DNA from: a bacterium
GTDB lineage: Bacteria > Electryoneota > Electryoneia > Electryoneales > Electryoneaceae
Direction of reading: 5' to 3'
Assembly: GCA_020444265.1 (NCBI GenBank)
Contig: JAHLLH010000015.1
Span: forward strand, 1 to 57,982
Length of the DNA: 57,982 nucleotides
Below are positions 8,349 through 56,309 of the stretch, one piece after another (position 1 is the stretch's first letter; the number at the start of each line of letters is the position of its first letter). The notes under the pieces are model-generated. The model worked only from the letters and a program-made list of their open reading frames with translations, ran no database searches and had not been told where the DNA came from. The position numbers and the translations under genes are program-made.

Positions 8349-10634
8349 CTACTTCACATACACCACTTTCCGCAGGGCCGAGGCATTCCCCGCACGCAAC
8401 TGGACGAGATAAACCCCACTCGCCAGCCCATCCGGCTGCCATGCCATCCGGTGCTCGCCTGCAGCCAGGGGCGACGCCAGTAACTCCTGAACCAACCGTC
8501 CCTGGATATCGTAAACCACGACCCGTGCCTCCCCTGCGGAGGGAAGCACAAACTCCAGCTGGACGGTGCTGTTGAAGGGATTGGGCCAGGGTGTAGCCAA
8601 GTTGATAGAGGAGGGCTGAGCTGGTGTATCAGGTTCCTCTACGTCCAGGTCGATGCCCGATGTCGTGTAGACTCCCTGGAATGTGGTACCGTAGTAGATT
8701 CGTTCATCCGCAAGGGAGAAGCTTCGTGCCTGCTCACCCCAGTCGGGAGTCAGCACCGCGTGGAAAAAGCCCATACTGTCTTCGCTTGCCCAGACAAGTC
8801 CGGCCCCCAACCGGAGAAACCAGAGAATGCCAGGGTAGGCAGGATCGACCTGCAAAGCTCCGTTCCTGTTATGAGCTGTGTTGCCAATCTCCAACCAATT
8901 GCCTGCAATTTGGTAACGGTAGAGAAGAGCGTCACTGGTCGAGACGAACAGTATCCAGCGATCATGATTCATCACCGCGATATCTCGTACGGCACCGTCC
9001 ACGGTCATGTCGTACCACGTCGTACCCCCATCGAGCGAAAAATGGAGCACCCCGTAACTGCCAACGTAGATATGGTCAGGATCGCCCGCCTCGATGAAAG
9101 GTGCACTTAGCCCTGTTGCCTCCAGTCCAGGTGCGGCAACGACCCAGCTTTCACCGCCGTCGGTCGATCTGATGATTTCTTCGGTTGTGTCAACACCCCA
9201 CAGGATGAGAGGGTCGGTGGGGTGGGCAGTAATGGCGATGTGTCGGCTACCGGAAGCGGCCAGATGTGAAGTGGTCCAGCTGTCCCCCCCATCGCTGCTT
9301 TTAGCAATGCTGCGGTAAGTCGCAATGTGAATCACAAGGGAGTCCGTCGCTGCGATCTCCACGTCATAAACCCGGGAAGAGTAGATCTTCTCCCATGAAT
9401 TACCAGCGTCATAGGTGCGGAAGAGACCGGTGAGTCCGGCAGCGTAGCAGGTGTCGGGATGGAAGGGGTGGGGAGCGAGATCCCAGATGGTCGAGTTGCT
9501 TGTCCCGTCCATCGGCAAGCGGGTCCCGTTGCCGGTCTCGTCACGGATCACCTGGTCTTGAAGTGAAGCGATCAAGATCGAATCTTCGCTTGTACCCACC
9601 CAACCGAGCGTTGCATCTCCCAGTTGAGGGGCCAGGTGAGCGGGACCATCGTAGGAGACGGCGAGGGTATCGGCGACCGTGGGGTCTTCCGCATGATTAC
9701 GGATGAACTCGTGGATACCGTGGTACGCGATATTTCCAGATGGTGAGCGGTAGATCCGTGCCGGATGCAAATCCATTGTAACACTTGTGGCGGTAAGTGT
9801 CGATGGGATAATATGCCAAAGCCGTGGCCAGGGGATCCAGTCGCTGTCGGTCAGCACCCAGACTGCATCGGTCGTGGATTCGTCCACTTCGATCCGTCGT
9901 ACGACATCTGAGAGGGGGACATTGGTCGGCCAGTCTTCTCCACCGTTCTCAGAGATCGAAAAGCTTCCCCCCAAACTGGCAAAAATCGTATCGGAAGGAC
10001 TTGGGCATCCGATGACAGCCAGGCAGGCATACCCACTATTCGTGATCTGGGTCAATTCCTCCTCGAGGGGATCATATCGCCAGGCAAGATCGTTGGTGTC
10101 CACGTAAAACAGGCCCGCTGCATTCATTACCGGTGCCTTGAAGTGATACCTCGTTTCAATGAATACCCCCATTCCTTCCCATGTTTCCCCAGCGTCGTCA
10201 CTGTGGTAGAGATGGTTCCCGATCATGGTGAAAACGTGATCAGGAAAAGCTTCGTTCGTTCCAACCCAATGAGTTGGAAACATCGAACCCCAGTAGGCGG
10301 ACCGCTCCGATGCAGTGTCGAGCACGGTCGAACTTGACCAGAAGAAGTAGGCATCGTCCTCGACGACAGGAGGGCGGGAGGAACCCACGTTCATCCGTGT
10401 CCAAGTGCCCGTATCACGTTCCAGACGATAGAGTCCGTTGTTGGCGGTCCCAACAAAAATCAGGTTGGCATCCCACTCGGCTCCGTGTACAGCTGTGGCC
10501 TGCAAACCGGGCGGGCCATGGGATTCCCACTGAGCAGAGACACTCTGCGAAAGGGAGAGGAAAAGCATGAAACTGAAAAAAACGAGGGCAAAAGGATGGA
10601 TAGGGTACAGGTGCGATCCATGCAGGCGGCTCAT
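8349..10634 (-). CDS. Secreted Asp-box (BNR/sortilin-like) propeller protein with T9SS-type C-terminus
   Basis: A 761-residue exported protein. It has an N-terminal signal peptide (about residues 12-35, ending VSAQW) and at least six Asp boxes of the form S-x-D-x-G-x-x-W (for example HSDDAGETW, RTYDAGNSW, KSSDGGDSW, RSTDGGESW, FSLDGGTTW), which mark beta-propeller blades of the sortilin/BNR type. The last 80 residues are a T9SS type A / FlgD-Ig-like domain: PWPNPFNSTVQLEF, VVVYDIQGRLVQEL, LASGVYLVQL. The glycosidase residues of sialidases are not visible, so a binding or structural role is more likely. It is a distant relative of the protein at 52607-54967. A promoter is proposed at 10679-10707. 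Confidence 0.82.
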   Translation of the reverse strand: MSRLHGSHLYPIHPFALVFFSFMLFLSLSQSVSAQWESHGPPGLQATAVHGAEWDANLIFVGTANNGLYRLERDTGTWTRMNVGSSRPPVVEDDAYFFWSSSTVLDTASERSAYWGSMFPTHWVGTNEAFPDHVFTMIGNHLYHSDDAGETWEGMGVFIETRYHFKAPVMNAAGLFYVDTNDLAWRYDPLEEELTQITNSGYACLAVIGCPSPSDTIFASLGGSFSISENGGEDWPTNVPLSDVVRRIEVDESTTDAVWVLTDSDWIPWPRLWHIIPSTLTATSVTMDLHPARIYRSPSGNIAYHGIHEFIRNHAEDPTVADTLAVSYDGPAHLAPQLGDATLGWVGTSEDSILIASLQDQVIRDETGNGTRLPMDGTSNSTIWDLAPHPFHPDTCYAAGLTGLFRTYDAGNSWEKIYSSRVYDVEIAATDSLVIHIATYRSIAKSSDGGDSWTTSHLAASGSRHIAITAHPTDPLILWGVDTTEEIIRSTDGGESWVVAAPGLEATGLSAPFIEAGDPDHIYVGSYGVLHFSLDGGTTWYDMTVDGAVRDIAVMNHDRWILFVSTSDALLYRYQIAGNWLEIGNTAHNRNGALQVDPAYPGILWFLRLGAGLVWASEDSMGFFHAVLTPDWGEQARSFSLADERIYYGTTFQGVYTTSGIDLDVEEPDTPAQPSSINLATPWPNPFNSTVQLEFVLPSAGEARVVVYDIQGRLVQELLASPLAAGEHRMAWQPDGLASGVYLVQLRAGNASALRKVVYVK

Positions 10635-10678
10635 GAAATTCTCGCAGTAAAGAGTATAGCGGGGTATTGATTACTCTA

Positions 10679-10707
10679 AAGATAGATGGGGGTGGATAGG
10701 ATCGCAA
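10679..10707 (-). promoter_or_regulatory. Candidate sigma-70 promoter for the Asp-box protein
   Basis: On the minus strand TTGCGA (10702-10707), a 17-bp spacer and TATCTT (10679-10684). The inferred start of transcription would give a leader of about 40 nt before the start codon at 10634. Confidence 0.5.
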
Positions 10708-10737
10708 CAAGCACAGCAATGAACCATAAATGAAACA

Positions 10738-10754
10738 CACCTCCAGGGGAGGTG
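10738..10754 (-). terminator. Hairpin downstream of bioY, possible weak terminator
   Basis: CACCTCC (10738-10744), loop AGG, GGAGGTG (10748-10754). On the minus strand it is followed by TGTTTCATTT, a poor T tract, so termination is uncertain. Confidence 0.4.
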
Positions 10755-10787
10755 CGGGAAGCTTCATGGATTCAGCCGGAGTTACAT

Positions 10788-11375
10788 CTATTTCCCGGAT
10801 AGCCTCTTTACACCCAGGTAAATCCCCGTTGCCGCCGCGATCTTGACCAATCCACCGGGAATAAATGGCAGGACACCCAGCTTGAAAGCCATGAAGCCGT
10901 CCATGTGGGTGTAGAAGAGGGTCATGTGGGCCCATCCTGCAAAGAGGATGATTGCAGTGCCGAAGAAAAAGACGGCGACCACTCCCGAGGTTCCCTGGGC
11001 ACGTTTGATCACTGCGCCAACATAGAGGGCGGCCAAGATGAAGCCGACAATGTACCCGCCGGATGGACCGGCGAGGATGGCCAGCCCGGTTGAGGCGCCA
11101 GCAAACAAAGGCAACCCGATTGCTCCCCAAACCACATAGAGAAACTGGCTGACGCTACCGCGCCAGGGACCGAGAAAGGCACCCGAAAGAAGGACTGCGA
11201 GGGTTTGCAATGTAATCGGCACAGGGGTGAAGGGCAGAGGTACGATGACCTGCGCTGCAAGGGTCGTCAGGAGAGTGAACCCCAGCACGAGAAAAAAGGA
11301 ACGTACCGCTTGAGCTGCGCTGACTGCGTACTCGTTGGCCATATTCCCATCATAGGAATTTGTAAAACGACTCAT
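10788..11375 (-). CDS. bioY: BioY biotin transporter S component
   Basis: An integral membrane protein of about 195 residues with six hydrophobic segments. It has the BioY signatures PLPFTPVPITLQTLAVLLSG near the N-terminus and GPSGGYIVGF in the middle. BioY is the substrate-binding unit of the ECF biotin importer; no EcfA/EcfT genes are adjacent, so it would use a shared energy module or work alone. Start choice is open: ATG 11375 has GGGG six bases upstream, while ATG 11342 also fits the family length. It diverges from mutA, a sensible context because biotin serves the carboxylase feeding the methylmalonyl-CoA mutase. Confidence 0.92.
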   Translation of the reverse strand: MSRFTNSYDGNMANEYAVSAAQAVRSFFLVLGFTLLTTLAAQVIVPLPFTPVPITLQTLAVLLSGAFLGPWRGSVSQFLYVVWGAIGLPLFAGASTGLAILAGPSGGYIVGFILAALYVGAVIKRAQGTSGVVAVFFFGTAIILFAGWAHMTLFYTHMDGFMAFKLGVLPFIPGGLVKIAAATGIYLGVKRLSGK

Positions 11376-11767
11376 CACGTGCCCCAGAATCAACGTGAAT
11401 CAACAATGTTCAAATCGGCGGAAAGATAACGATTCAGGATGAGCAAGCAAACTTTTTCGCAATCCGATTCGAATTTACTCCCACAGACCAGATCATCTAA
11501 TCGGGGGCCTTGAGAGCACCCACGCTTGAGTATGTTTTCACAAAGCCATCTCTCTATATTATCGCTCCCTGAAGCGTGGGATCGACGGTCGCTTTTTCGA
11601 AACGTATCTTCCTGCTCAGGAAGGATGTAATACGGACATGCATGTGACTTGAGTGCTCCATCACCCAAGCGTGTATGTCAGCACGATTCAGCAACTTTTT
11701 ACGTTGACAGGTAGGGATGAAAACCTGGGTGACAGCTGCCTGGGTACCCTGAACAACTTTCAACCGG
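11376..11767. other. Intergenic region between divergent bioY and mutA
   Basis: Some 390 bp with no convincing gene. It holds a 9-bp inverted repeat (CCCACGCTT 11519-11527 and AAGCGTGGG 11572-11580) around an AT-rich stretch with TATATTAT (11555-11562) that could hold a -10 element. A tandem AATCAAC motif lies near the bioY start. I looked for a cobalamin riboswitch before mutA and did not see its conserved B12 box. Confidence 0.4.
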
Positions 11768-13918
11768 ATGGCATCGATGGTTGACACGAACCAATCCGCC
11801 GCTGAACCTAAGCGGCTTTTGAGCGAATTTGAGGCGCCCACCCTCGAGCAGTGGCACGAGGAAGTGGTGCGTCTGCTGAAAGGGGCACCCTTCGAAAAGA
11901 AGATGTTAACCCCGACCTATGAGGGCATTACCCTCAAGCCGATTTATACGCAAGAAGATGTGGAAGGCCTCGAGCATGTCAAGGCGCTCCCGGGCGACCC
12001 GCCCTATGTGCGCGGGACCGATCCGATCCACTACCGGACCCACGGTTGGGAGATCGCGCAGGAACTGCCTTATCCAACCTACGAAGAGTTTAATGCTGCA
12101 CTGAAGCATGACATGGCGCGCGGACAGTCGGCGGTCAATCTCCTGCTCGATGAGGCGACCCAGGCCGGGCTCGATCCGGACTACGCTCAGCAGGGGCAGG
12201 TGGGGAAGGATGGCACATCCATCTCGAGTGTAATCGGGCTGGGACGGGCGTTGGATGGTCTTGACCTTTCCGAAACACCGATCTACATCCAGGCTGGTTC
12301 TGCGGCGCTGCCCTTTGCGGCGTTGCTCATCGCGCTGATGCGACGTAACGGGCAGGATGTGTCAAAACTGCGCGGCAGCATCGGTTTTGATCCCCTCGCA
12401 GGTCTTGCGACCCACGGCTCCCTGCCGATCAGCCTGGAACGTGCCTGGGCGGAGATCGCCCTGCTGACTCGTTGGGCTCGTTCCCATGCTCCGCAGGTGA
12501 AGACGATTTCGATCTGGTCGCACATGTGGCATGAGGCAGGTGCAAATGCGGTGCAGGAGTTGGCGATTGCCCTCGCGACTGGCGTGTGCTACCTGCGCGA
12601 GATGGAACAGCGTGGGCTGAGTGTCGAAGAAACAGCCGGGAAGATGCAATTTGGCTTCAGCATCGGCGGTCACTTCTTCATGGAAATCGCCAAGTTGCGC
12701 GCGGCACGTCTGCTCTGGGCGAAAGTCGTGCAGGCGTCGGGTGGTTCGCCGGATGCGGGCAAAATGACCATTCATGGACGAACCAGCCGCCGTCAGCAAA
12801 CCACGTTCGATCCCTACACCAACATTCTCCGTTCGACGACTCAGGCCTTTTCGGCCGTCGTAGGTGGAGTCGACAGCCTCCACGTAGCACCCTTCGACGA
12901 GGCTCTCGGGGTGCCGGGTGAATTTGGACGTCGCATCGCACGGAATACGCACATCATCCTACGCGATGAGGCGCACCTGAACAACGTGCTCGACCCGGCT
13001 GGCGGAAGCTGGTATGTCGAAACGTTGACCGACCAGCTTTCGCAAGAAGCGTGGAAGCTTTTCCAGCAGATCGAAGCGGAAGGTGGTATTGAGAAGGCGC
13101 TTGAAAAGGGTTTCCTGCAGGAGATGGTCGAAGCGACCGCGCAGGAACGTCACGCCAACCTCGCGACGCGGAAGGATGTGCAGGTAGGGATCAACATGTA
13201 TCCGAACCTTGCTGAACGTCCAGTCGATGCAATCATTCCTGACCTCGAAAAGGTCTTCGAGGATCGAACGAAACGGTTGCAGGCGCTGCGAGTTTCCAGC
13301 GAGCATGGCAAGGAAGTGCAGGTCCTCTTCAAGCTTGGCGCCATCATGGAAGCGGATCCCGAGGATGTCTTCGAGGCGGTGATCGATGCTGCAGCGCACG
13401 GTGCGACGATTGGCGAATTCACCAAGACGTTGCGTCACGGGGACGGCACAAAACCGACAGCTAGGCAGTTGATAGCGAAACGAGTGTCAGAGGATTTTGA
13501 GAACCTTCGCCGTCGCGTGCTGGCTGCTCAAGATGAGCGGAAACCTTCAGTATTCCTCGCCAATGTGGGCCCGGTCGCGGGCTACATGCCGCGAGTCGAC
13601 TTCACTCGTTCCTTCTTCCAGGTCGGCGGGTTCCGTGTTGCGGGCGATGACTGGTTCGAAGATGCCGAGGCCGCCGTCGAAGCCGCCAAGGCAAGCCGTG
13701 CCTCGGTCGTCGTCATTGTCTCAACGGATGATCAGTACGAGGAGATCGTCCCCACCATCGCGGGCAGCTTGAAGCAGCAGGCGAAGATCATCCTCGCTGG
13801 CTACCCGAAGGAACAGATCGAGAGCTTCACCGCCGCAGGTGTGGAGAGCTTCATCCACATGCGCAGCGATGTCTATGCCGTGCTCAATGAGCTGGCGGAC
13901 AACCTCGAGGGCAAGTGA
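11768..13918 (+). CDS. mutA: Methylmalonyl-CoA mutase small (non-catalytic) subunit
   Basis: A 716-residue beta subunit of the adenosylcobalamin-dependent mutase that interconverts (R)-methylmalonyl-CoA and succinyl-CoA. It is homologous along its length to the large subunit encoded next to it, with a TIM-barrel domain (about 1-560) and a C-terminal flavodoxin-like domain. The cobalamin-binding motif D-x-H-x-x-G is missing; the corresponding stretch reads [13 protein letters not shown], as expected of the structural MutA chain. No strong ribosome-binding site precedes ATG 11768; ATG 11777 is an alternative. It almost touches mutB, so the two are co-translated. Confidence 0.95.
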
Positions 13919-13920
13919 TC

Positions 13921-16104
13921 ATGAACAAGACAACCATACCTGATTTTACGAAGGTCGAGTTGACGACCAACGGTGCGAAGGGGGATGTCGCCGGGTGGCA
14001 GTCGCGTGTCGAAGAGCAGGTAAACGGGGATCTCGACTCGCTGCTCTGGAAGACCAATGAGCAGATTCCGGTCAAGCCGCTTTACACGTTGGATGATCTC
14101 GACGATACCGAGCATCTGAAGTTTACGGCGGGTATTGCGCCTTTCCTCCGTGGTCCCTACGCCAGCATGTACGTGATCCGTCCCTGGACAGTCCGTCAGT
14201 ATGCGGGCTTCTCCACCGCTGAAGAATCCAATGCTTTCTATCGCCGGAACCTTGCTGCGGGGCAGAAGGGCTTGTCGGTGGCGTTCGATTTAGCGACCCA
14301 TCGTGGCTACGATTCCGATCATCCGCGAGTTGTTGGCGATGTCGGCAAGGCTGGCGTTGCGATTGATTCGATCCTCGACATGAAGATGCTGTTTGATGGC
14401 ATCCCGCTCGACACGATGTCGGTGTCGATGACCATGAACGGTGCCGTGCTGCCGGTGATGGCCTTTTACATTGTCACCGGCCTCGAGCAAGGCGCGAGCC
14501 TGGACCAGCTCACCGGAACCATCCAGAACGACATCCTCAAAGAGTACATGGTGCGGAATACTTACATTTATCCGCCCATACACTCGATGAAGATCATCGC
14601 CGACATCTTCGAGTACACCTCGAAGAACATGCCGAAGTTCAACAGCATCTCCATCTCCGGCTACCACATGCAGGAGGCGGGAGCGACCGCCGACCTCGAG
14701 CTGGCCTACACCCTTGCCGATGGTCTCGAGTATGTCCGGACCGGCATGGCCGCCGGACTTCCCGTTGACAAATTCGCCCCACGCCTCAGCTTCTTCTGGG
14801 CCGAGGGGATGAACTACTTCATGGAAGTGGCGAAACTCCGCGCTGGCCGACTGCTGTGGGCAAAGCTCATCAAGCAGTTCGATCCGCAAAACCCGAAATC
14901 GATGGCCTTGCGTACACATTCCCAGACCTCCGGCTGGTCGCTTGCGGAGCAGGATCCCTTCAACAATGTGGTCCGTACCTGTGTCGAAGCGATGGCAGCA
15001 TCGTTGGGCCATACCCAGAGCCTCCACACCAATGCTCTAGACGAAGCGATTGCACTGCCGACCGATTTCTCAGCCCGGATTGCGCGTAACACTCAGCTCT
15101 ACCTGCAGGATGAGACCGGCATTTGCCGCGTGGTTGACCCTTGGGGCGGATCGTATTATCTGGAGCGCCTTACCCACGAGCTGATGCACAAAGCATGGGC
15201 GCACATCCAGGAAGTGGAAGAGATGGGCGGCATGGCGAAAGCGATCGAGTCCGGCCTGCCGAAGATGCGTATCGAAGAAGCGGCGGCACGCAGGCAGGCG
15301 CACATCGACAGTGGCGCGGAGACGATTGTCGGTGTTAACAAGTACCGTCTCGACAAAGAAGAACCGCTCGAAATTCTCGATATTGACAACACGGAAGTAC
15401 GTCGTCAGCAGATCGCACGACTGGAGAAGCTGAAGGCCGGACGTGACAGTGCAGCGGTCGAGAAGACACTGAACGCTCTGTCGGTCGCGGCGAAAACGGG
15501 TGAGGGTAACCTGCTCGAGCTGGCGGTGGAAGCGGCGAAGGCACGGGCTTCATTGGGCGAGATCAGTGATGCGCTCGAGAAACATTTTGGACGGCATAAA
15601 GCGGAGATCAGAACCATCAGCGGAGTCTATTCCAGCGAATTTGCGCAGGACGATGCGATTCAGGAAGTCCGTGCGCTGACCAAGTCCTTCGAGGATCAGG
15701 AGGGGCGTCGTCCACGTATCCTCGTCGCTAAGATGGGGCAGGATGGGCATGACCGTGGTGCGAAGGTGGTCGCCACCGCCTTCGCCGACCTTGGTTTCGA
15801 TGTCGATGTCGGTCCCCTCTTCCAGACTCCGGAAGAGACGGCTCGGCAGGCGGTAGAGAATGATGTCCACATCGTCGGCATGAGTTCCCTCGCCGCCGGG
15901 CACAAGACCCTGCTTCCGGAGTTGGTCGCCGAGCTGAAGAAGCTGGGACGTGAGGACATCATGGTCATCTGTGGTGGGGTCATCCCGGCACAGGACTACG
16001 ACTACCTGCGTGAACAGGGTGCCGCTGCCATCTTTGGCCCGGGAACCGTCATCCCCCACGCAGCGAAGGTGCTGCTGGAAGAACTGATGGAGCGTCTCAG
16101 CTAA
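13921..16104 (+). CDS. mutB: Methylmalonyl-CoA mutase large (catalytic) subunit
   Basis: A catalytic alpha subunit of about 727 residues. The barrel domain includes [20 protein letters not shown], with the substrate-site tyrosine and arginine region. The C-terminal cobalamin domain has the base-off motif GQDGHDRG, whose His ligates cobalt, then the GxSxL equivalent GMSSLAAGH and the GG of VICGGVIP. With MutA it forms the heterodimer linking propionyl-CoA metabolism to succinyl-CoA. I use ATG 13921, with GAGG ten bases upstream; a GTG at 13915 overlapping the mutA stop is possible. The chaperone meaB lies 9.6 kb downstream rather than in this operon. Confidence 0.97.
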
Positions 16105-16112
16105 GTCAAGGC

Positions 16113-16287
16113 GAGGATTCCGGCAAAGGCCGGATGACAAAGCCAACCCCTTTGATAGAGATCTTCAACCCCGGTACTCATCTGCCGGTGTCAGGTTTCA
16201 GCTTTCAACTTGCAAGCGACCGTCCGGTGATTTCTAGCTTCATCGTTCCCCTTGCAAGAAAACCCGGACATCAAGCTGTCCGGGCCA
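16113..16287. repeat. Two hairpins downstream of mutB
   Basis: The first, ATTCCGGC-AAA-GGCCGGAT, lies about 10 bp after the mutB stop, near 16116-16135. The second is CCCGGACA-TCAAGC-TGTCCGGG near 16263-16284 followed by CCAG, so on the minus strand CTGG precedes the palindrome as in other members of the hairpin family. Neither has a clear T run. Either could end mutAB or the converging minus-strand gene. Confidence 0.6.
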
Positions 16288-36714: not shown

Positions 36715-37120
36715 ACCTTATTGTGTTGTTAGTGGGAGTCTGAGCTATGAGGGTAACAAGCGCATCCAGAATTGCTGTAAACCTGGCTATCATCCTTCTG
36801 GTATTTACTGGTTCAGAATTGTCATTGGGTCAGATCCCCCTATCCGGAAATTTGTCTGGAACCCTTGAGGATACCGTTTATTCTGTTATCGACGATGTTT
36901 TTATCTCCTCTTCAGACACCTTATTGTGTTGTTAGTGGGAGTCTGAGCTATGAGGGTAACAAGCGCATCCAGAATTGCTGTAAACCTGGCTATCATCCTT
37001 CTGGTATTTACTGGTTCAGAATTGTCATTGGGTCAGATCCCCCTATCCGGAAATTTGTCGGGAACCCTTGAGGATACTGTTTACTCTGTTATTGATGATG
37101 TATATATCTCCTCTGCTGAT
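36715..37120 (+). repeat. 203-bp tandem direct repeat containing the 5' end of the beta-helix gene
   Basis: Unit 1 spans 36715-36917 and unit 2 starts at 36918. The first 142 bp of both (36715-36856 and 36918-37059) are identical, covering the leader, start codon and signal peptide. The next 61 bp differ at about ten places, mostly third codon positions (TCT/TCG, ACC/ACT, TAT/TAC, ATC/ATT, GAC/GAT). The sharp change from identity to divergence indicates a mosaic rather than a simple recent duplication. Confidence 0.9.
36747..36935 (+). pseudogene. Truncated duplicate of the beta-helix protein gene 5' end
   Basis: A 62-codon frame whose first 50 residues are identical to the signal peptide and start of the protein at 36950, with FISSSDTL in place of YISSADTL. 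It ends LLCC and a stop where it runs into the leader of the second repeat unit. The frame keeps its own ribosome-binding context, so a short signal-peptide fragment could still be made. I regard it as debris of the tandem duplication. Confidence 0.85.
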
Positions 37121-38623
37121 ACATTGTTCATCCTGCCTGGTGCTGAACTTCGATTTTCCGCAGATGTATTGTTTACAATTGATGGCCGTCTTGTCGCTGA
37201 AGGTGTTGAAGGTGATTCGGTTTTCTTCATTCCGGATGTGGAAGGAGAGAACTGGGGCGGGCTGGATTTCACGGACGATTCTCATTACAACTCCCACATC
37301 TATTACTGCCATATCGAAGGCTCCAACTCGAGTGGAATCTTCATCGACGACAGAAGCTCCGTCCACCTTAGACACTCCTTAATTGTGAACAACTCCAATG
37401 AAGGATCGTACCTGGGTGGTGGGATCTATTGGGTAAGCATCTGGACCAACCACACGTTGGAGTATTGTACGATTTCCAGTAATGAGAACAATGGACTATA
37501 CATCTCTGGTCAGGCGAACGTCATCCCAAGGAACTGTGTGATATCAGGAAACTCAGGCACCGGGTTGATTGTTCATGCCTATTTCCAGGAACTGTACGAC
37601 CTGGTAATTGAGGATAACTCTGGATCCGACTATGGGGGTGGACTGTTCGTTGGCGGAGGAGCCACCCGGATAGAGGATTGTGTCATCCGAAACAACACGT
37701 GCAGTCATTGGGGCGGCGGTGTGCGGAATGAAGGTTCTGTCATCATGGAACGCTGCGTCATCTCAGGGAACACAGCAGTAGATGGAATCGGGGGAATGGG
37801 GGGCGAAGGTGAGGGCGCAGATACCATAAGGTACAACTTGTTCGAAGGGAACGAAGCACCCTTCGCAGGGGCGCTAACACTTGATACAGATTCTGTGCTC
37901 GATCATTGTACGATCGTAAACAACACATCGAGTAATACGCAGGCTGGTGGTATGGGCGGAGTGGTTGTTGCATCCATTGCTGGTATAGTATCTAACTCTG
38001 TGTTTTATAACAATTATGGCTTATCAACAATCTATTCAGATTACAACATTGAGTTATACCTCACTTATAACGATTTCAATGATAATGAAATAAGTGAAAT
38101 ATGGATTAGTCACAATGTACCAGTTGATTTTGGCGAACTAACTAATACAAACAGCAATGGAGATCCTTGTGATCCTTTTCAAAACATCATCATGGACCCA
38201 CTGTTCACTGATGCCTCCAATCATGATTATTCGCTATTAGATGACTCGCCCTGCATCAATGCGGGTGATCCTGACTATCCATTGGATGCCAATCAAAGTT
38301 TTACCGATCTGGGAGCATTTCCCTTTGATGTACTAAACTCTTTCGAGAATCCGACTTGGCCAACGCAGCCATCCAACGGAATACTCGCCTATCCAAACCC
38401 GTTTAATTCGAGCATCACCATCGTTCCGCGAACATCTACGATGAAGATGAAAACAATCGTTGTCTATAATGTTCTCGGAAAACGAGTGTCGAATGTACCT
38501 GTGGCAAAGCACCAGACTGCCGTGAGTTTCGCGCCAAAAGGGTTAGCTGCAGGGGTTTATTTCATTGAGACGACAACAGATAACGGTGATATTTATAGAA
38601 ATAACATTATTTATCAGAAATAA
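36950..38623 (+). CDS. Secreted parallel beta-helix protein with T9SS-type C-terminus
   Basis: A 557-residue exported protein. It has a signal peptide (about 1-29, ending SLGQ), then roughly 350 residues of short repeated coils rich in CxISxN/NxxxGG patterns (EYCTISSNENNGLYISG, RNCVISGNSGTGLIV, EDCVIRNNTCSHWGGGV, ERCVISGNTAVDGIGGMGG), typical of right-handed parallel beta-helices (NosD/pectate-lyase-like). The C-terminal domain is AYPNPFNSSITIV, IVVYNVLGKRVSNV, GLAAGVYFIETT. The coding sequence is more AT-rich than its neighbours. It lacks recognisable lyase residues, so a surface or adhesion role is as likely as polysaccharide cleavage. Confidence 0.82.
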   Translation: MRVTSASRIAVNLAIILLVFTGSELSLGQIPLSGNLSGTLEDTVYSVIDDVYISSADTLFILPGAELRFSADVLFTIDGRLVAEGVEGDSVFFIPDVEGENWGGLDFTDDSHYNSHIYYCHIEGSNSSGIFIDDRSSVHLRHSLIVNNSNEGSYLGGGIYWVSIWTNHTLEYCTISSNENNGLYISGQANVIPRNCVISGNSGTGLIVHAYFQELYDLVIEDNSGSDYGGGLFVGGGATRIEDCVIRNNTCSHWGGGVRNEGSVIMERCVISGNTAVDGIGGMGGEGEGADTIRYNLFEGNEAPFAGALTLDTDSVLDHCTIVNNTSSNTQAGGMGGVVVASIAGIVSNSVFYNNYGLSTIYSDYNIELYLTYNDFNDNEISEIWISHNVPVDFGELTNTNSNGDPCDPFQNIIMDPLFTDASNHDYSLLDDSPCINAGDPDYPLDANQSFTDLGAFPFDVLNSFENPTWPTQPSNGILAYPNPFNSSITIVPRTSTMKMKTIVVYNVLGKRVSNVPVAKHQTAVSFAPKGLAAGVYFIETTTDNGDIYRNNIIYQK

Positions 38624-51005: not shown

Positions 51006-51107
51006 CCTCTGACCTGGCCCGACACTTCAGTGTCGGGTCTCATCAGAGGAAAAAGCTGGACGAATGCTAACGTCCGAAGAAACCCGACACTGAAGTGTCG
51101 GGGCCAG
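51006..51107 (+). repeat. Two mirror-image hairpins between sdhA and sdhB
   Basis: First: CCTCTGA (51006-51012) encloses CCCGACAC-TTCA-GTGTCGGG (51018-51037) and closes with TCAGAGG (51043-51049). Second: CCCGACAC-TGAA-GTGTCGGG (51083-51102). The outer CTGGCCCGACAC (51014-51025) can also pair with GTGTCGGGGCCAG (51095-51107), so the folds exclude one another. They belong to the REP-like family. Confidence 0.8.
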
Positions 51108-51146: not shown

Positions 51147-51851
51147 ATGGCCAAACGCACATTTAAAATCTTCCGCTTCAATCCGGAGACGGATGAGAAG
51201 CCTTCATACAAGACCTACGAGATTGACGTACAGCCTGCCTGGACCATCCTTGATGTGTTGAACGAGATCAAATGGTTTCAGGATGGGACGCTGACCTATC
51301 GCCGTTCCTGCCGTCATGGCATCTGCGGTTCCTGCGCGATGATGGTCAACGGCATCAACAACCTCGCCTGCGAGTTACAGATTGCGACGATGAAGAAGGA
51401 CCCCATCGTCATCGATCCGCTGCCCGGTTTCGAGATCTACAAGGATCTCGCGGTCAACATGGATCCCTTCTACGAGGCGCTCAAGCGGGTGAAACCATGG
51501 CTGATCAACAATGATCCGGCACCGAGCCGTGAACGCCTACAGTCGCAGGAAGAATTCGCGTTGATGGGTAATTCCATCGCCTGCATTCTCTGCGCCGCGT
51601 GCACCAGTTCCTGCCCGAGCTTCTGGACCGATGGCGAGTACCTCGGCCCGGCGGCGCTGTTGAAGGCCTTCCGTTACACCTTCGACACTCGCGACCACGG
51701 CCTTGACCAGCGCATCGAAGCGCTGGACAACAAGCACGGCCTCTGGCGCTGCCACAAGATCACCAACTGCTTCACCGCCTGCCCGAAGAACCTCAACCCA
51801 ACCGAGGCGATCAGCAAGCTGCAGAAGCGGATTGTGGAAGAGAAGTTGTAG
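51147..51851 (+). CDS. sdhB: Succinate dehydrogenase iron-sulfur subunit
   Basis: A 234-residue subunit passing electrons to the quinone. The plant-type ferredoxin domain has SCRHGICGSCAMMVNGINNLAC (2Fe-2S); the bacterial-type domain has CILCAACTSSCPSFW and CHKITNCFTACPKNLNP (4Fe-4S and 3Fe-4S). It ends LNPTEAISKLQKRIVEEKL; the last 61 bp and 8 bp beyond are repeated at 55076-55144. Its start has GGAGTG upstream. Last gene of sdhCDAB. Confidence 0.96.
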   Translation: MAKRTFKIFRFNPETDEKPSYKTYEIDVQPAWTILDVLNEIKWFQDGTLTYRRSCRHGICGSCAMMVNGINNLACELQIATMKKDPIVIDPLPGFEIYKDLAVNMDPFYEALKRVKPWLINNDPAPSRERLQSQEEFALMGNSIACILCAACTSSCPSFWTDGEYLGPAALLKAFRYTFDTRDHGLDQRIEALDNKHGLWRCHKITNCFTACPKNLNPTEAISKLQKRIVEEKL

Positions 51852-51858
51852 GGGAAAC
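51790..51858 (+). repeat. Left copy of a 69-bp direct repeat (sdhB 3' end)
   Basis: This stretch matches 55076-55144 at 68 of 69 positions; the single difference is at 51851 (TAG here, TAA there), inside the stop codon. The two copies are 3,286 bp apart and bracket a block containing only secreted-protein genes. Confidence 0.92.
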
Positions 51859-51887
51859 ACGCTGATAAGCACATTATTACTGACATA

Positions 51888-51921
51888 AGCCCCGTGTAAT
51901 ACGATTACACGGGGCTTTTTT
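51888..51921 (+). terminator. Terminator after sdhB (left copy)
   Basis: AGCCCCGTGTAAT (51888-51900), loop ACG, ATTACACGGGGCT (51904-51916), followed by a T run to 51921. A different terminator follows the second copy of the sdhB end (55160-55189). Confidence 0.92.
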
Positions 51922-52088
51922 AGTGGCGATATCCTGGAGAAATACTAAATAAGCATAAATATTTATAAAAAGAGACAAGCTATTAAAATAGACTAGAAAT
52001 ATTAGTAGTATTCCAACACTGAATCTGAAACTCACCCTGAAAGATCGGACCAATGGGGTCTGATTCGATAAAAAAGCAGGAGAATATC

Positions 52089-52493
52089 ATGAAGCGTACA
52101 GCACTCACCGTACTGATGCTCGTCGCTCTGGGTGCAACGACCCTCTTCGCTGCACCCCCGCCGCCGGAAGAATTGTATGGTGACTACGCCTCCGCAGGGT
52201 GGTGGGACATGGACACCTTCAGGGAGACCGACACTCCGGGTCTCAATCTCCCACTGAAGATTACTGCAAATGCAGCGTCCAATGTCGAAGACCCGAGCTA
52301 TGAGTACCTTCAGGGCGAGTACTACAATGGTTCTCTCTTCTGTACCATTGTCATGACTCGAACTGAGCACGATCAACACACGGCGAATGGTGGATGGTGG
52401 TCGAAATCCCAGAACTACACCAATGTCCCCGCAGATTACGATCCCTTTATCATTTCGCCGGGACCTACGGTCCGTACTTTGCGGAAACCGTAA
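52089..52493 (+). CDS. Small secreted protein, probable frameshift near the end
   Basis: A 134-residue frame with signal peptide (MKRTALTVLMLVALGATTLFA) and a mature part with many aromatic residues (YGDYASAGWWDMDTF, YEYLQGEYYNGSLFC). ATG 52089 follows AGGAG. From about 52455 the reading frame looks wrong (IISPGPTVRTLRKP), whereas the -1 frame gives FAGTYGPYFAETVSYLEGW and a stop at 52525, with better composition. A single missing base around 52441-52455 would explain it: mutation, sequencing error or, less likely, programmed shifting. No family recognised. Confidence 0.65.
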   Translation: MKRTALTVLMLVALGATTLFAAPPPPEELYGDYASAGWWDMDTFRETDTPGLNLPLKITANAASNVEDPSYEYLQGEYYNGSLFCTIVMTRTEHDQHTANGGWWSKSQNYTNVPADYDPFIISPGPTVRTLRKP

Positions 52494-52606
52494 GTTATCT
52501 TGAAGGCTGGTTGGACGAAGAATAATTGTCGTTTGATCATTCGCTGTACACCACGGTTCGAAATCAGGGTCGTGGTGTGCAGGTTTCTATCTGAGGTGTC
52601 AACGGT

Positions 52607-54967
52607 ATGAGAATCAGCAGGCTGATTGTCGCATGTCTCCTCTTTGTCATTATCCCCGCCTCATTCGGATGGGTGCATGTCCCATCTGGTACGGTCAATG
52701 CCTCGACTTTTGTCTGTAGCGACGACGAATCACGGATTGTGATGGGGGTCTCGGGGGGTGGCTACTGGATCACACAGGATGGGGGACAGACATGGGAGAT
52801 GTTGAACCCTTGGTCGCCTGCCCCGGTGAATCTCTATGACAGCATGGTCGCTGTTGACAGCGCGTGTGATACGGTCTATGTGGGGGCCGAATGCACGATG
52901 GATCCCGACAAAATCTTGTCCTATACCTTTAATGGTGGTGCAGATTGGGAGGTCATGCAGGATCAATCAGGCCTGCCAATTTTTCCGAATATTGAGCGCA
53001 TCGTGGTGGTGGATTGGAGCAACCATTCCCGTATCTGGTGTTTTCGTTCCAATTACATGATACAATCTGAAAATGCCGGTATTGACTGGAGTTACAATGT
53101 AGTAGACTCCATCAATTATGGTATCGGAAGTTTTTTTCAGGATCAGGATGATCCGTCAGTCATCTGGGCGGCAGGCTATTATTCGTTCTTGCCCATGCAC
53201 GTCGATGAACCCACCAACCGCTTTATTCGAAAAAGTGAAGATTATGGCCAGACCTGGTCCAGTCCGCTGAATCTTGACAATCTGGTCGATGATACTCAAC
53301 CATCCGGCGGCAGCGCCCGGTGTATGATCAAATTGTCCAATGGTGATTTGTTGGCGGGTGGTTTTCACTACCTCGATGGTGAAACGAACACACAGGAACA
53401 GCTGTTCCGAAGCACAGATGGGGGACTGACGGGAGAGTGGTTCAATGGGAACCTCCCAGATGGTTTTTTCCCCGAGCAGCTGATCGAAGACCCGCAACAG
53501 CCTGGAACAGTTTTTCTGTCCGGCGGTCTCATCTACGGCCTCTACCGGTCCACTGACTATGGCGCAACGTTTAACCGTGTTGCCAATGGCCTGCCAACCG
53601 GCCCCCTCACAGTGGTCAATATCAGTAAAAACGAGCACAACGGTACCGTCTATTTGAGTCTTCATGGCTGGGGTGTGTACGCCACGTCCGACGGGGGTGA
53701 AACCTGGCGCGAGTTGCCGAAACCACCCATCGGGAGTCGTGCAACGATAAACGTCTTCTCCGATTGTATCCAGCTTCGACATAGCGGGTACATCTACAAG
53801 CGGTATGGTTTTGCAACGGAATCTTGGGATCAGCTCTCGTTCCCCTCTTTTGATCCCTACCTGCCCCTCGTTTTCCCCATCACCTTTTCTGACGATCAGA
53901 CTATAGTGGTGGGTACACGTCTCTTCAATTCAGAGAATTCCGACGAATTGAGGATCGCAACGTTGAGGAGTGACGATCAGGGTGAAACCTGGCAGGAAAT
54001 CGGGGAACGTTTCACGAGGCAGACTGCACATTATTCGGCCTGGCAAGGTGAAACTGAGTCCCGTTTGGTCACAGTCACCGCAACGGATGTCGCTGATCTC
54101 TCCCAGGTATGTGTGTCGACCGATACGGGGAGGACCTGGACCTATGGAGCGGAGATTCAATCCGCACCCGGACGTCTGCCCGGCATCCATCAGAGTGAGA
54201 ATTATATCTACGCAGTCGTCCAGGTATCTCCCCAGGAAGGGAGTATTTATCGGTCCGCAGACGGTGGAATGACATTCGAAAACATGGATTTTCCGGACAG
54301 TCCGAATTTGCTGACTGTGCTGACCGGAGATCGTCTCGCAGTCAATGCCTACATCGACAATGATTTGAAGAAGGTCTACTATTATGACGGCGATTCCTGG
54401 GAATTGAGCAATCCATCGGTCAGTATGAATAGCGAAATCGTACAAGCCTCAGATGATCCCGAAAGATGGGTGGCAACACATATTAATGGGTGGGGGGAGA
54501 GCTCACTTCTGATCAGTGAAAACCATGGTCAAACCTGGGTGAGCCGTGACCTCGAGATTCCCTACGCAGAGTTCAAACCATTTTTGGGTACATTGTCAAG
54601 TGATCCCTGGAGGGAAAGGATCTGGGTATCGACTGGGATCGGACTCTGCTACCTGCCGACTTCGGACTTAGCTGTTGACGATGGACCGCTGAACCTGCTT
54701 CCGCTCGCGCACACTGTTCTGAGTAATTTCCCCAACCCATTCAACCAGACGACCAGCATTACCTACACCTTGCGACAGGCAGGCAGAATGGAGTTGACCC
54801 TGTATGATATGCAGGGCCGTTTGATTCGAACAATCGACACTGGCTTTCGTGAAGCTGGGTTTTATACCCATTCGCTTACAATGAATGATCTGGCCTCGGG
54901 GACGTACTTTCTTCGACTTGTTGCAAATGGAGATGTGGTAAACAGGAAGATCACCCTGCTGAAATGA
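52607..54967 (+). CDS. Secreted Asp-box propeller protein with T9SS-type C-terminus
   Basis: A 786-residue exported protein: signal peptide (about 1-21), then at least eleven Asp-box or near Asp-box motifs (ITQDGGQTW, YTFNGGADW, KSEDYGQTW, RSTDYGATF, ATSDGGETW, RSDDQGETW, VSTDTGRTW, RSADGGMTF, ISENHGQTW), indicating one or two sortilin/VPS10-like beta-propellers. The last 80 residues are SNFPNPFNQTTSITYT, LTLYDMQGRLIRTI, LASGTYFLRLV. It resembles the protein at 8349-10634. The gene lies within the segment bounded by the sdhB-end repeats. Confidence 0.83.
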   Translation: MRISRLIVACLLFVIIPASFGWVHVPSGTVNASTFVCSDDESRIVMGVSGGGYWITQDGGQTWEMLNPWSPAPVNLYDSMVAVDSACDTVYVGAECTMDPDKILSYTFNGGADWEVMQDQSGLPIFPNIERIVVVDWSNHSRIWCFRSNYMIQSENAGIDWSYNVVDSINYGIGSFFQDQDDPSVIWAAGYYSFLPMHVDEPTNRFIRKSEDYGQTWSSPLNLDNLVDDTQPSGGSARCMIKLSNGDLLAGGFHYLDGETNTQEQLFRSTDGGLTGEWFNGNLPDGFFPEQLIEDPQQPGTVFLSGGLIYGLYRSTDYGATFNRVANGLPTGPLTVVNISKNEHNGTVYLSLHGWGVYATSDGGETWRELPKPPIGSRATINVFSDCIQLRHSGYIYKRYGFATESWDQLSFPSFDPYLPLVFPITFSDDQTIVVGTRLFNSENSDELRIATLRSDDQGETWQEIGERFTRQTAHYSAWQGETESRLVTVTATDVADLSQVCVSTDTGRTWTYGAEIQSAPGRLPGIHQSENYIYAVVQVSPQEGSIYRSADGGMTFENMDFPDSPNLLTVLTGDRLAVNAYIDNDLKKVYYYDGDSWELSNPSVSMNSEIVQASDDPERWVATHINGWGESSLLISENHGQTWVSRDLEIPYAEFKPFLGTLSSDPWRERIWVSTGIGLCYLPTSDLAVDDGPLNLLPLAHTVLSNFPNPFNQTTSITYTLRQAGRMELTLYDMQGRLIRTIDTGFREAGFYTHSLTMNDLASGTYFLRLVANGDVVNRKITLLK

Positions 54968-55075
54968 ACCGCTCTGAAAGTGTGCAAGACGAATCATGTC
55001 CAATACGCGAACGATTGGCAGAGTGCACTTGGGTAGCGGATAGCTCTTTGGCCACAACATTCCTAGCCATGCCAC

Positions 55076-55144
55076 ACCTCAACCCAACCGAGGCGATCAG
55101 CAAGCTGCAGAAGCGGATTGTGGAAGAGAAGTTGTAAGGGAAAC
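55076..55144 (+). repeat. Right copy of the 69-bp repeat (remnant of the sdhB 3' end)
   Basis: Carries the last 20 codons of sdhB (LNPTEAISKLQKRIVEEKL) with stop TAA instead of TAG and the following GGGAAAC. No sdhB body precedes it; the upstream sequence is unrelated. It is followed within 50 bp by a terminator. Confidence 0.92.
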
Positions 55145-55159
55145 TTGGAAGCAAACTCA

Positions 55160-55189
55160 ACGCCCGGGCGATGAAGCTCGGGCGTTTTT
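55160..55189 (+). terminator. Terminator after the second sdhB-end copy
   Basis: ACGCCCGGGC (55160-55169) with GCTCGGGCGT (55176-55185), one G-T pair, then TTTTT (to 55189). It was possibly the original sdh operon terminator before the intervening segment arrived. It also faces the histidine kinase stop at 55191. Confidence 0.85.
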
Positions 55190-55190
55190 G

Positions 55191-56309
55191 TTACCGTCCG
55201 CAGGAGAAGCTGAAGGTTGTCCCGATACCGGGGCCGGAGAGGAAGGTGATGCGGCCTTTCAAGTAGGTCTCACCGATCAGCTTCATCGAGTAGGTGCCGA
55301 GGCCACGGCCTGATCCGCCCTTGCTGGTGTAGTGACGCTGGAAGATGCGCAATTGTTGATTGGGCGGGATGAAGGCATCGTTCCAGACATGGAAGGTGAT
55401 GGTCGAATCGGCGAGGTCGTACCAGAAACGGACCTCATCGCCTTGGCTGCTCGCCTCGAAGGCATTGGTCAGCATGTTCATCAGGACGCGCAGCAGCAGG
55501 GAATAGTCGGTCAGGATCAGGGTGCCATCTTCAACCTGCGGCAGCACAAAGTGGATGTTCTGTGCGAACGGGGCATTGCGGAAGATGCGATGGATGTCCT
55601 TCACCAGGTCTCGAAGTACAATCGGTTCGAGACGGGTTTCGTAGTCGTAGTCCTCCTGGGTCAGGAGACGGTGGACATCAAATTCCTTCTTAAGGCGCCA
55701 ACTTAACCGGTTGATATCGTGGACCGTTTCACTATCTGGGTTTTCCCCTTTCATGATCTCTGTATTCGCCACCAACCCCATCACCATGTTGTTCACGTCG
55801 TGATAAAAGATGCGCTCCATGTAGTGACGGACTTCTTCGCTGGTGACATCGCGCGCGAAGAGGAGGATAAATTTTTGCTCGTCAAATTCGACCGGCACCG
55901 CACGAACGCTCAGGCAGATGTCCTGCACAGCCCCGTTCTGCTGGGTTTGAATCGCGCAGAGTCGTTCCTCCGGTTTGTCCTCGGCCAGGCAAGTGACAAT
56001 CGCAATCGCCGCGCCGCAGGACGAGCAATAGCGGCTGGTGCCACACCCGGCGGTTTGCTTCCAGGCATGCACACAATGGAGCGCCTCGCCGGGACGCAAG
56101 CCGAGTACTCCGGCGGCATCGTCCACACCAAGCGCATCGAGAAAGGCTTTGTTGACGGATACAATCTGACGGTGTTCGTTGAGGACCGCTATCAAGCCAG
56201 CCACCGTTTGCAGCAAGCCATCTACGAAGGGGTTATTGCTGATCGAATCGATCGTCGAGGTGAGTTCGTCAAGGCTTTTTCGCTCAGGGGACGCGAAGAA
56301 GGATCCCAT
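55191..56309 (-). CDS. PAS histidine kinase with a four-cysteine motif
   Basis: A 372-residue soluble sensor kinase. PAS-like domain at about 30-155 with an insert carrying Cys79, His81, Cys89, Cys95 and Cys98 (LHCVHAWKQTAGCGTSRYCSSCGAA), spaced for a metal or Fe-S centre and known from PAS kinases of anaerobes as a CxH...C-x5-C-x2-C signature. The phospho-acceptor is in IFYHDVNNMVMGLVANTE. The ATPase has NMLTNAFEASSQG (N box) and the G2-like GSGRGLGTYSMKLIGE. No transmembrane helix and no response regulator beside it. It may sense redox or metal. Confidence 0.87.
   Translation of the reverse strand: MGSFFASPERKSLDELTSTIDSISNNPFVDGLLQTVAGLIAVLNEHRQIVSVNKAFLDALGVDDAAGVLGLRPGEALHCVHAWKQTAGCGTSRYCSSCGAAIAIVTCLAEDKPEERLCAIQTQQNGAVQDICLSVRAVPVEFDEQKFILLFARDVTSEEVRHYMERIFYHDVNNMVMGLVANTEIMKGENPDSETVHDINRLSWRLKKEFDVHRLLTQEDYDYETRLEPIVLRDLVKDIHRIFRNAPFAQNIHFVLPQVEDGTLILTDYSLLLRVLMNMLTNAFEASSQGDEVRFWYDLADSTITFHVWNDAFIPPNQQLRIFQRHYTSKGGSGRGLGTYSMKLIGETYLKGRITFLSGPGIGTTFSFSCGR

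Follow-up and report, generated by a model that had tools for sequence, protein, structure and literature searches.

A duplicated sdhB 3' end brackets genes for secreted proteins in an Electryoneota genome: a candidate insertion with long target duplication

Insertion with long target duplication was reportedly described by Nobusato, Uchiyama, Ohashi and Kobayashi in 2000 for restriction-modification genes of Helicobacter pylori. Two published reports describe a small gene set flanked by a long direct duplication of the target, the length of which is variable (PMC1643837; PMC3031569). In Escherichia coli, single crossovers of a recircularised fragment at lacZ left the gene end duplicated: polymerase chain reaction showed this in 56 of 60 clones, and the duplications measured 109-950 bp in the 14 that were sequenced (PMC3240628). 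Integrative elements, including cis-mobilizable elements (CIMEs), use the 3' ends of protein genes such as trmE, guaA and rplL (PMC5704250), and transfer hotspots without mobile elements are attributed to recombination at the flanking core genes (PMC5635113). The locus analysed here lies at the 3' end of sdhB, the gene of the succinate dehydrogenase iron-sulfur subunit, in a bacterium of the same family as Candidatus Electryonea clarkiae, where a 69-bp direct repeat of the gene end brackets a cassette of two genes for secreted proteins. The stretch of DNA that was analysed (the window) is the whole of contig C3, 57,982 bases long, of a 4.33-Mb genome in 19 contigs (G000; GCA_020444265.1), which was compared with 39 genomes of the phylum, none of them congeneric with the source organism. 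The best explanation, to which we give a probability of about one half, is an insertion with long target duplication at the sdhB 3' end, most likely by one RecA-type crossover.

The duplicated sdhB end and its cassette

The two repeat copies lie on the plus strand at 51790-51858 and 55076-55144, 3286 bp apart from start to start, and are identical at 68 of 69 positions (self-BLAST E 2e-27), the sole change turning the TAG stop of the left copy into TAA. The left copy comprises the last ~61 bases of sdhB, stop included, and ~8 bases just past it; the right copy is a 5'-truncated sdhB tail. Comparison and self-BLAST thus reproduce the length, spacing, identity and TAG/TAA change given in a preliminary description made from the sequence alone, as well as, to within 'about', its division of the repeat into 61 bp of sdhB end plus 8 bp. 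Both ends of the identity are abrupt, and the repeat lies away from the ends of the contig, of which the window is the complete sequence. The whole genome holds two copies, besides one 22-base match elsewhere, and close same-strand repeats of such quality (at least 50 bp, at least 95% identity, at most 15 kb apart) number three in 1.26 Mb, the sdhB repeat included. The repeat is real and beyond chance. As in insertions with long target duplication, a direct repeat of tens to hundreds of base pairs, here 69 bp, brackets the additional genes. The order is that of a Campbell-type single-crossover product, with the whole gene first, then the insert and then a directly oriented copy of the gene that lacks its 5' part. 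A 57-amino-acid frame at 54964-55137 joins 37 codons to the SdhB tail and was taken to have arisen by chance.

The sdhB gene itself is intact (51147-51851, plus strand; 234 amino acids, Fer2_3/Fer4 Pfam domains, 77-82% identity to family orthologues). Behind the left copy stands a terminator-like stem of 14 bp (stem 1, 51887-51917, plus strand), presumably part of the insert, and then an AT-rich spacer (51918-52088, with 24% GC at 51930-52020) that is the probable promoter region of the cassette and contains a sigma-70-like site at 51962-51989, a consensus match only. The first cassette gene (52089-52493, plus strand) encodes a small secreted protein of 134 amino acids with a signal-peptide-like start and without a Pfam or NCBIfam match. 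It is separated by a 16-bp terminator-like stem, seen in the sequence at 52544-52582 (plus strand), from the second (52607-54967, plus strand), which encodes an Asp-box/BNR protein of 786 amino acids with Sortilin-Vps10 and BNR matches and a type A sorting domain of the type IX secretion system (T9SS). Both models of this C-terminal domain score above cut-off (Por_Secre_tail 2.4e-08, TIGR04183 3.8e-10). A 108-bp spacer without a second copy in the genome (54968-55075) leads up to the right-hand junction. Beyond the right copy, an 11-bp terminator-like stem (stem 2, 55159-55186, plus strand) adjoins the end of a convergent gene for a PAS/HATPase sensor kinase (55191-56309, minus strand; HATPase_c 4.5e-13), the resident right flank. 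Among the open reading frames (ORFs) of the 3.2-kb cassette, the ORF and Pfam search found no recombinase, integrase, transposase or remnant of one, which upholds the statement of the preliminary description that no integrase or transposase is present. Its list of contents (AT-rich stretch, small secreted protein, T9SS Asp-box protein, different terminator) matches the ORF, Pfam and stem checks; the stem at 52544-52582 is additional to it. Upstream, in the sdhA-sdhB gap, palindromes (CCCGACA..TGTCGGG) resembling repetitive extragenic palindromic elements occur at 51018-51102, and nine such palindromes were counted in 1.26 Mb of the genome.

The closest relatives of both cassette proteins lie in G000 itself. 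A paralogous pair stands in the same order behind serC- and serA-like genes at C16:320343-323232, with 36% identity for the small protein (G000:C16:320343-320711) and 40%, over the full length, for the Asp-box protein (G000:C16:320898-323228); no bracketing repeat of at least 30 bp was found around this pair. In 20 related genomes the small protein has no relative, the C16 paralogue being the sole one found. A foreign origin was considered from base composition and dropped: 4 of the 5 other Asp-box genes measured in G000 are more AT-rich than that of the cassette, and low GC, being common to most of them, is therefore uninformative on the point. A phage origin was likewise set aside, as the Asp-box protein has no relative in viral contigs. 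The cargo would most simply derive from a local family of long standing, which close relatives outside the sample may have exchanged.

Variable cargo and duplicated ends at other genes

Among family members with sequence behind sdhB, each has a single copy of the sdhB tail and different downstream sequence and genes. Two of them (G005 and G006) belong to one genus, sister to that of the source organism; the final 90 bases of sdhB show 94% identity between the two, and the identity ends at the stop. There G005 continues with ~6.8 kb encoding two similar FG-GAP proteins of 790 amino acids with T9SS tails (L055 reverse complement 9355-16194, G005:C64), and G006 with ~0.7 kb containing a short HNH-like gene (named by eye), after which synteny between the two resumes. 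Because identity breaks at this point, the inserts differ and synteny resumes, the sdhB stop appears to be a spot where T9SS cargo comes and goes.

Gene ends were surveyed for fragments near the parent gene at 988 ORFs within 1.36 Mb of G000. The survey gave three clean stop-anchored tails, those of sdhB, of a pyridoxal phosphate (PLP) ammonia-lyase gene and of a GlcF-like iron-sulfur gene (named by eye), all downstream of the gene and on the same strand. At C16:373100-375825 the lyase gene is followed by a membrane protein gene and a 131-bp copy of its tail (82%), and at C11:379256-381165 a lipoprotein-like gene and then a 110-bp tail copy (87%) stand behind the GlcF-like gene. The preliminary description had suggested a search for further 3' ends duplicated around T9SS genes; the 1.36 Mb surveyed holds these two further, older cases, with a membrane protein and a lipoprotein-like gene as cargo. 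The remaining fragments were low-similarity or dispersed repeats or lay beside related gene copies, and one, at 36747-36925 of the window, is a gene head within a tandem duplication without cargo. This 203-bp tandem duplication (94%; 36715-36925/36918-37128) covers the start region of a gene for a beta-helix protein with a T9SS tail (36950-38623), including upstream bases and the start codon. Related small lipoprotein-like genes form an array about a gene for a cobalamin-binding-type protein (G000:C11:373885-379918), and one of these lipoprotein-like genes lies inside the GlcF-like scar. For the 778 genes that measure 600 bp or more, no tail fragment was found far from its parent gene. Retro-copied messenger RNA tails were ruled out as a source because the tails sit in cis, 0.55-3.4 kb from their own gene.

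The same anatomy occurs in the genomes of relatives. In G001, the tail of a cysteine-synthase-like gene has a second copy (238 bp, 97%) 3.4 kb downstream, and the two copies enclose HigB/HigA and UPF0149 genes (L051:2324-6907, G001:C3). By eye, 4 of the 5 coding differences between its copies are silent, as expected for an insert arriving with the allele of a related strain. A short sequence resembling the higA end lies behind the stop of the cysteine-synthase-like gene, and a 41-bp piece resembling the UPF0149 tail lies upstream of the UPF0149 gene; because of these pieces the locus is likely to have received several layered insertions. In G003 the duplicated part is the head of sdhB: 59 bp with upstream bases have a second copy (58/59) 305 bp upstream, and a HicB-like gene (by eye) lies in between (L053 reverse complement 8795-9158, G003:C73). 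In G039, from another phylum, sdhB is followed by an exported lipoprotein-like gene and a 176-bp sdhB tail (86%; L071:5748-7977, G039:C50); this lipoprotein-like gene is itself flanked by an imperfect repeat of ~80 bp. All bracketing copies measure 59-238 bp and stand in cis, 0.2-3.4 kb from the gene, and the duplicated tails share no common core motif, nothing longer than 9 bases being found in common.

Origin of the arrangement

An insertion would proceed as follows. The incoming DNA would comprise an sdhB tail (~61 bases plus the stop region), a terminator of its own and both cargo genes, and would enter the chromosome at the resident sdhB tail. The most likely route is one homologous (RecA-type) crossover, for which the fragment, donated by a close relative, would be circular or recircularised; a dedicated integrase would not be needed. 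The product would be a complete sdhB with the incoming tail, the cargo, the 5'-truncated resident tail, the old terminator and the PAS kinase gene. The left copy would then be insert-borne and complete the resident gene, and the right copy with its TAA, together with the terminator at 55159-55186, would be original, so that the expected empty form reads sdhB-TAA-GGGAAACTTGGAAGC-terminator 2-PAS kinase. What we infer here is which way the insertion went, who the donor was, that a crossover was the route and that the right copy is original. The absence of a shared core and the varied lengths of the duplicated ends fit homology-driven insertion, and, with the different genes and the one 5' case, they agree with the Helicobacter pattern and with the single-crossover product of the E. 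coli experiment. G000 encodes a ComEC-type protein; such proteins are also encoded in 10 of 14 control genomes and, being this common, do not show competence.

Several observations weigh against this explanation. The preliminary description had proposed relatives as the place to find a clean empty site, with sdhB directly followed by the terminator at 55160 and the PAS kinase gene; none was found among the compared genomes, which hold no congener, and no family member retains the PAS kinase neighbour behind sdhB. The insert of G005 has no tail scar and no repeat, and samples of G005 (309 kb) and G014 (400 kb), 709 kb together, contained no tail scars. In the older scars, 35 of 63 changes fall at third codon positions, which fits allele transfer and in-place duplication with decay alike. 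A homology of 61-69 bp is short for efficient RecA recombination. Lastly, the abrupt end of identity on the right, past the stop, would be expected of an attachment (att) site too; it also fits, without proving it, an allele with unrelated downstream DNA, as in G005 and G006.

An att site is what a second explanation proposes, namely that the cassette is the integrase-less, CIME-like remnant of a site-specific element, the 69-bp copies being attL and attR and a tyrosine recombinase acting in trans or having been lost. The topology is identical, the identity is abrupt at both ends, CIMEs are well described, as are elements that use housekeeping-gene 3' ends (PMC5704250), and G000 has six tyrosine-recombinase genes. 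However, two of these six adjoin tRNA-Lys genes instead, the 3.2 kb between the copies holds no recombinase or remnant, and none of the papers in the collection searched joins sdhB with integrase, attB and genomic island, so that sdhB as a known attB was discarded. The lack of a common core among similar scars, their lengths of 59-238 bp, the different genes concerned and the one case at a 5' end argue against a single dedicated site-specific integrase. An integrase origin is possible, then, but less supported than insertion with long target duplication. What is supported of the integrative-element reading in the preliminary description is a likely insertion at the sdhB 3' end that keeps the gene whole, at a site that varies between G005 and G006; the site-specific element itself is not supported, given the missing recombinase and core, the varying lengths and the 5' scar. 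One of the tRNA-Lys genes of G000 lies beside a tyrosine recombinase gene (74006) and has a 90-bp partial copy (82%) 36 kb away (C16:73286-109451), which is probably a true tRNA-targeted island.

A local rearrangement without incoming DNA is unlikely. Here the tail and a downstream gene would have been duplicated in tandem, or replication would have switched template into the sdhB tail, with divergence or deletion afterwards. That every copy lies in cis, 0.2-3.4 kb from its gene, speaks for it, as does the relic in G039, which has lost an iron-sulfur cysteine and is less like the orthologues than the gene is. So does the GlcF-like locus, which has related lipoprotein genes (24% identical) behind both tails and could equally be read as a tandem duplication. 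At sdhB, however, what follows the second tail bears no relation to the cassette, and a local rearrangement would therefore need a second loss. The mostly silent changes in G001 also count against it, as does the lyase relic, which is about as similar to the orthologues as the lyase gene itself. An assembly artefact that joined two strain haplotypes at the sdhB tail is very improbable: the genome is probably metagenome-assembled, like its named relatives, but one base distinguishes the copies, no overlap with sdhB lies to the left of the junction at 55075/55076, there are no runs of N, and the same anatomy with diverged copies occurs in G000 and other genomes.

Significance and comparison with known systems

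The sdhB case belongs to a known kind of rearrangement, which recurs in this group with exported-protein and toxin-antitoxin cargo. The pattern has been known chiefly from restriction-modification genes, and the loci described here extend it to such cargo in a phylum that is uncultured. Large T9SS-exported families are spread across genomes of the Fibrobacteres-Chlorobi-Bacteroidetes (FCB) type, and the addition of single cargo genes to them has been little studied. A scar marks the insertion point, the host gene stays intact and the divergence of the copies gives a rough date, which together provide a simple genome-by-genome event finder. A wider proposal would be that in Electryoneota-type bacteria small cassettes (T9SS cargo, lipoproteins, toxin-antitoxin genes) repeatedly join housekeeping genes at their ends, by a route to which no enzyme is assigned and which duplicates 59-238 bp of the gene end. 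Perhaps this would be a dedicated mobility system, so far unrecognised, for which the sequence of each gene end serves as the target. We consider the proposal improbable; if true, exported-protein repertoires would grow at gene tails without mobile elements.

The Helicobacter insertions are similar in that a small gene set lies between long direct target duplications of variable length, but the cargo of the sdhB-type loci consists of T9SS/exported or toxin-antitoxin genes in Electryoneota-related hosts, the part that is duplicated is, in case after case, a housekeeping-gene end, and the sdhB insertion is known from one genome rather than as presence or absence among strains. The E. coli experiment gave the same Campbell-type product of gene region, insert and partial copy of the gene end. 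It used a laboratory plasmid with 1 kb of homology, however, and shortened fragments left lacZ broken, whereas at sdhB the duplication is 69 bp and the gene is kept whole. With CIMEs the locus shares an incoming copy that would restore the gene end and a direct repeat that brackets the cargo; unlike them, the sdhB-type scars have no integrase or shared core, enclose inserts of 0.2-3.4 kb and include one at a 5' end. Like the hotspots without mobile elements, the locus has variable cargo behind a conserved gene and no mobile-element genes, but under the hotspot model crossovers occur in each of the two flanking genes and no repeat is expected, whereas the sdhB-type loci use one gene and leave a scar.

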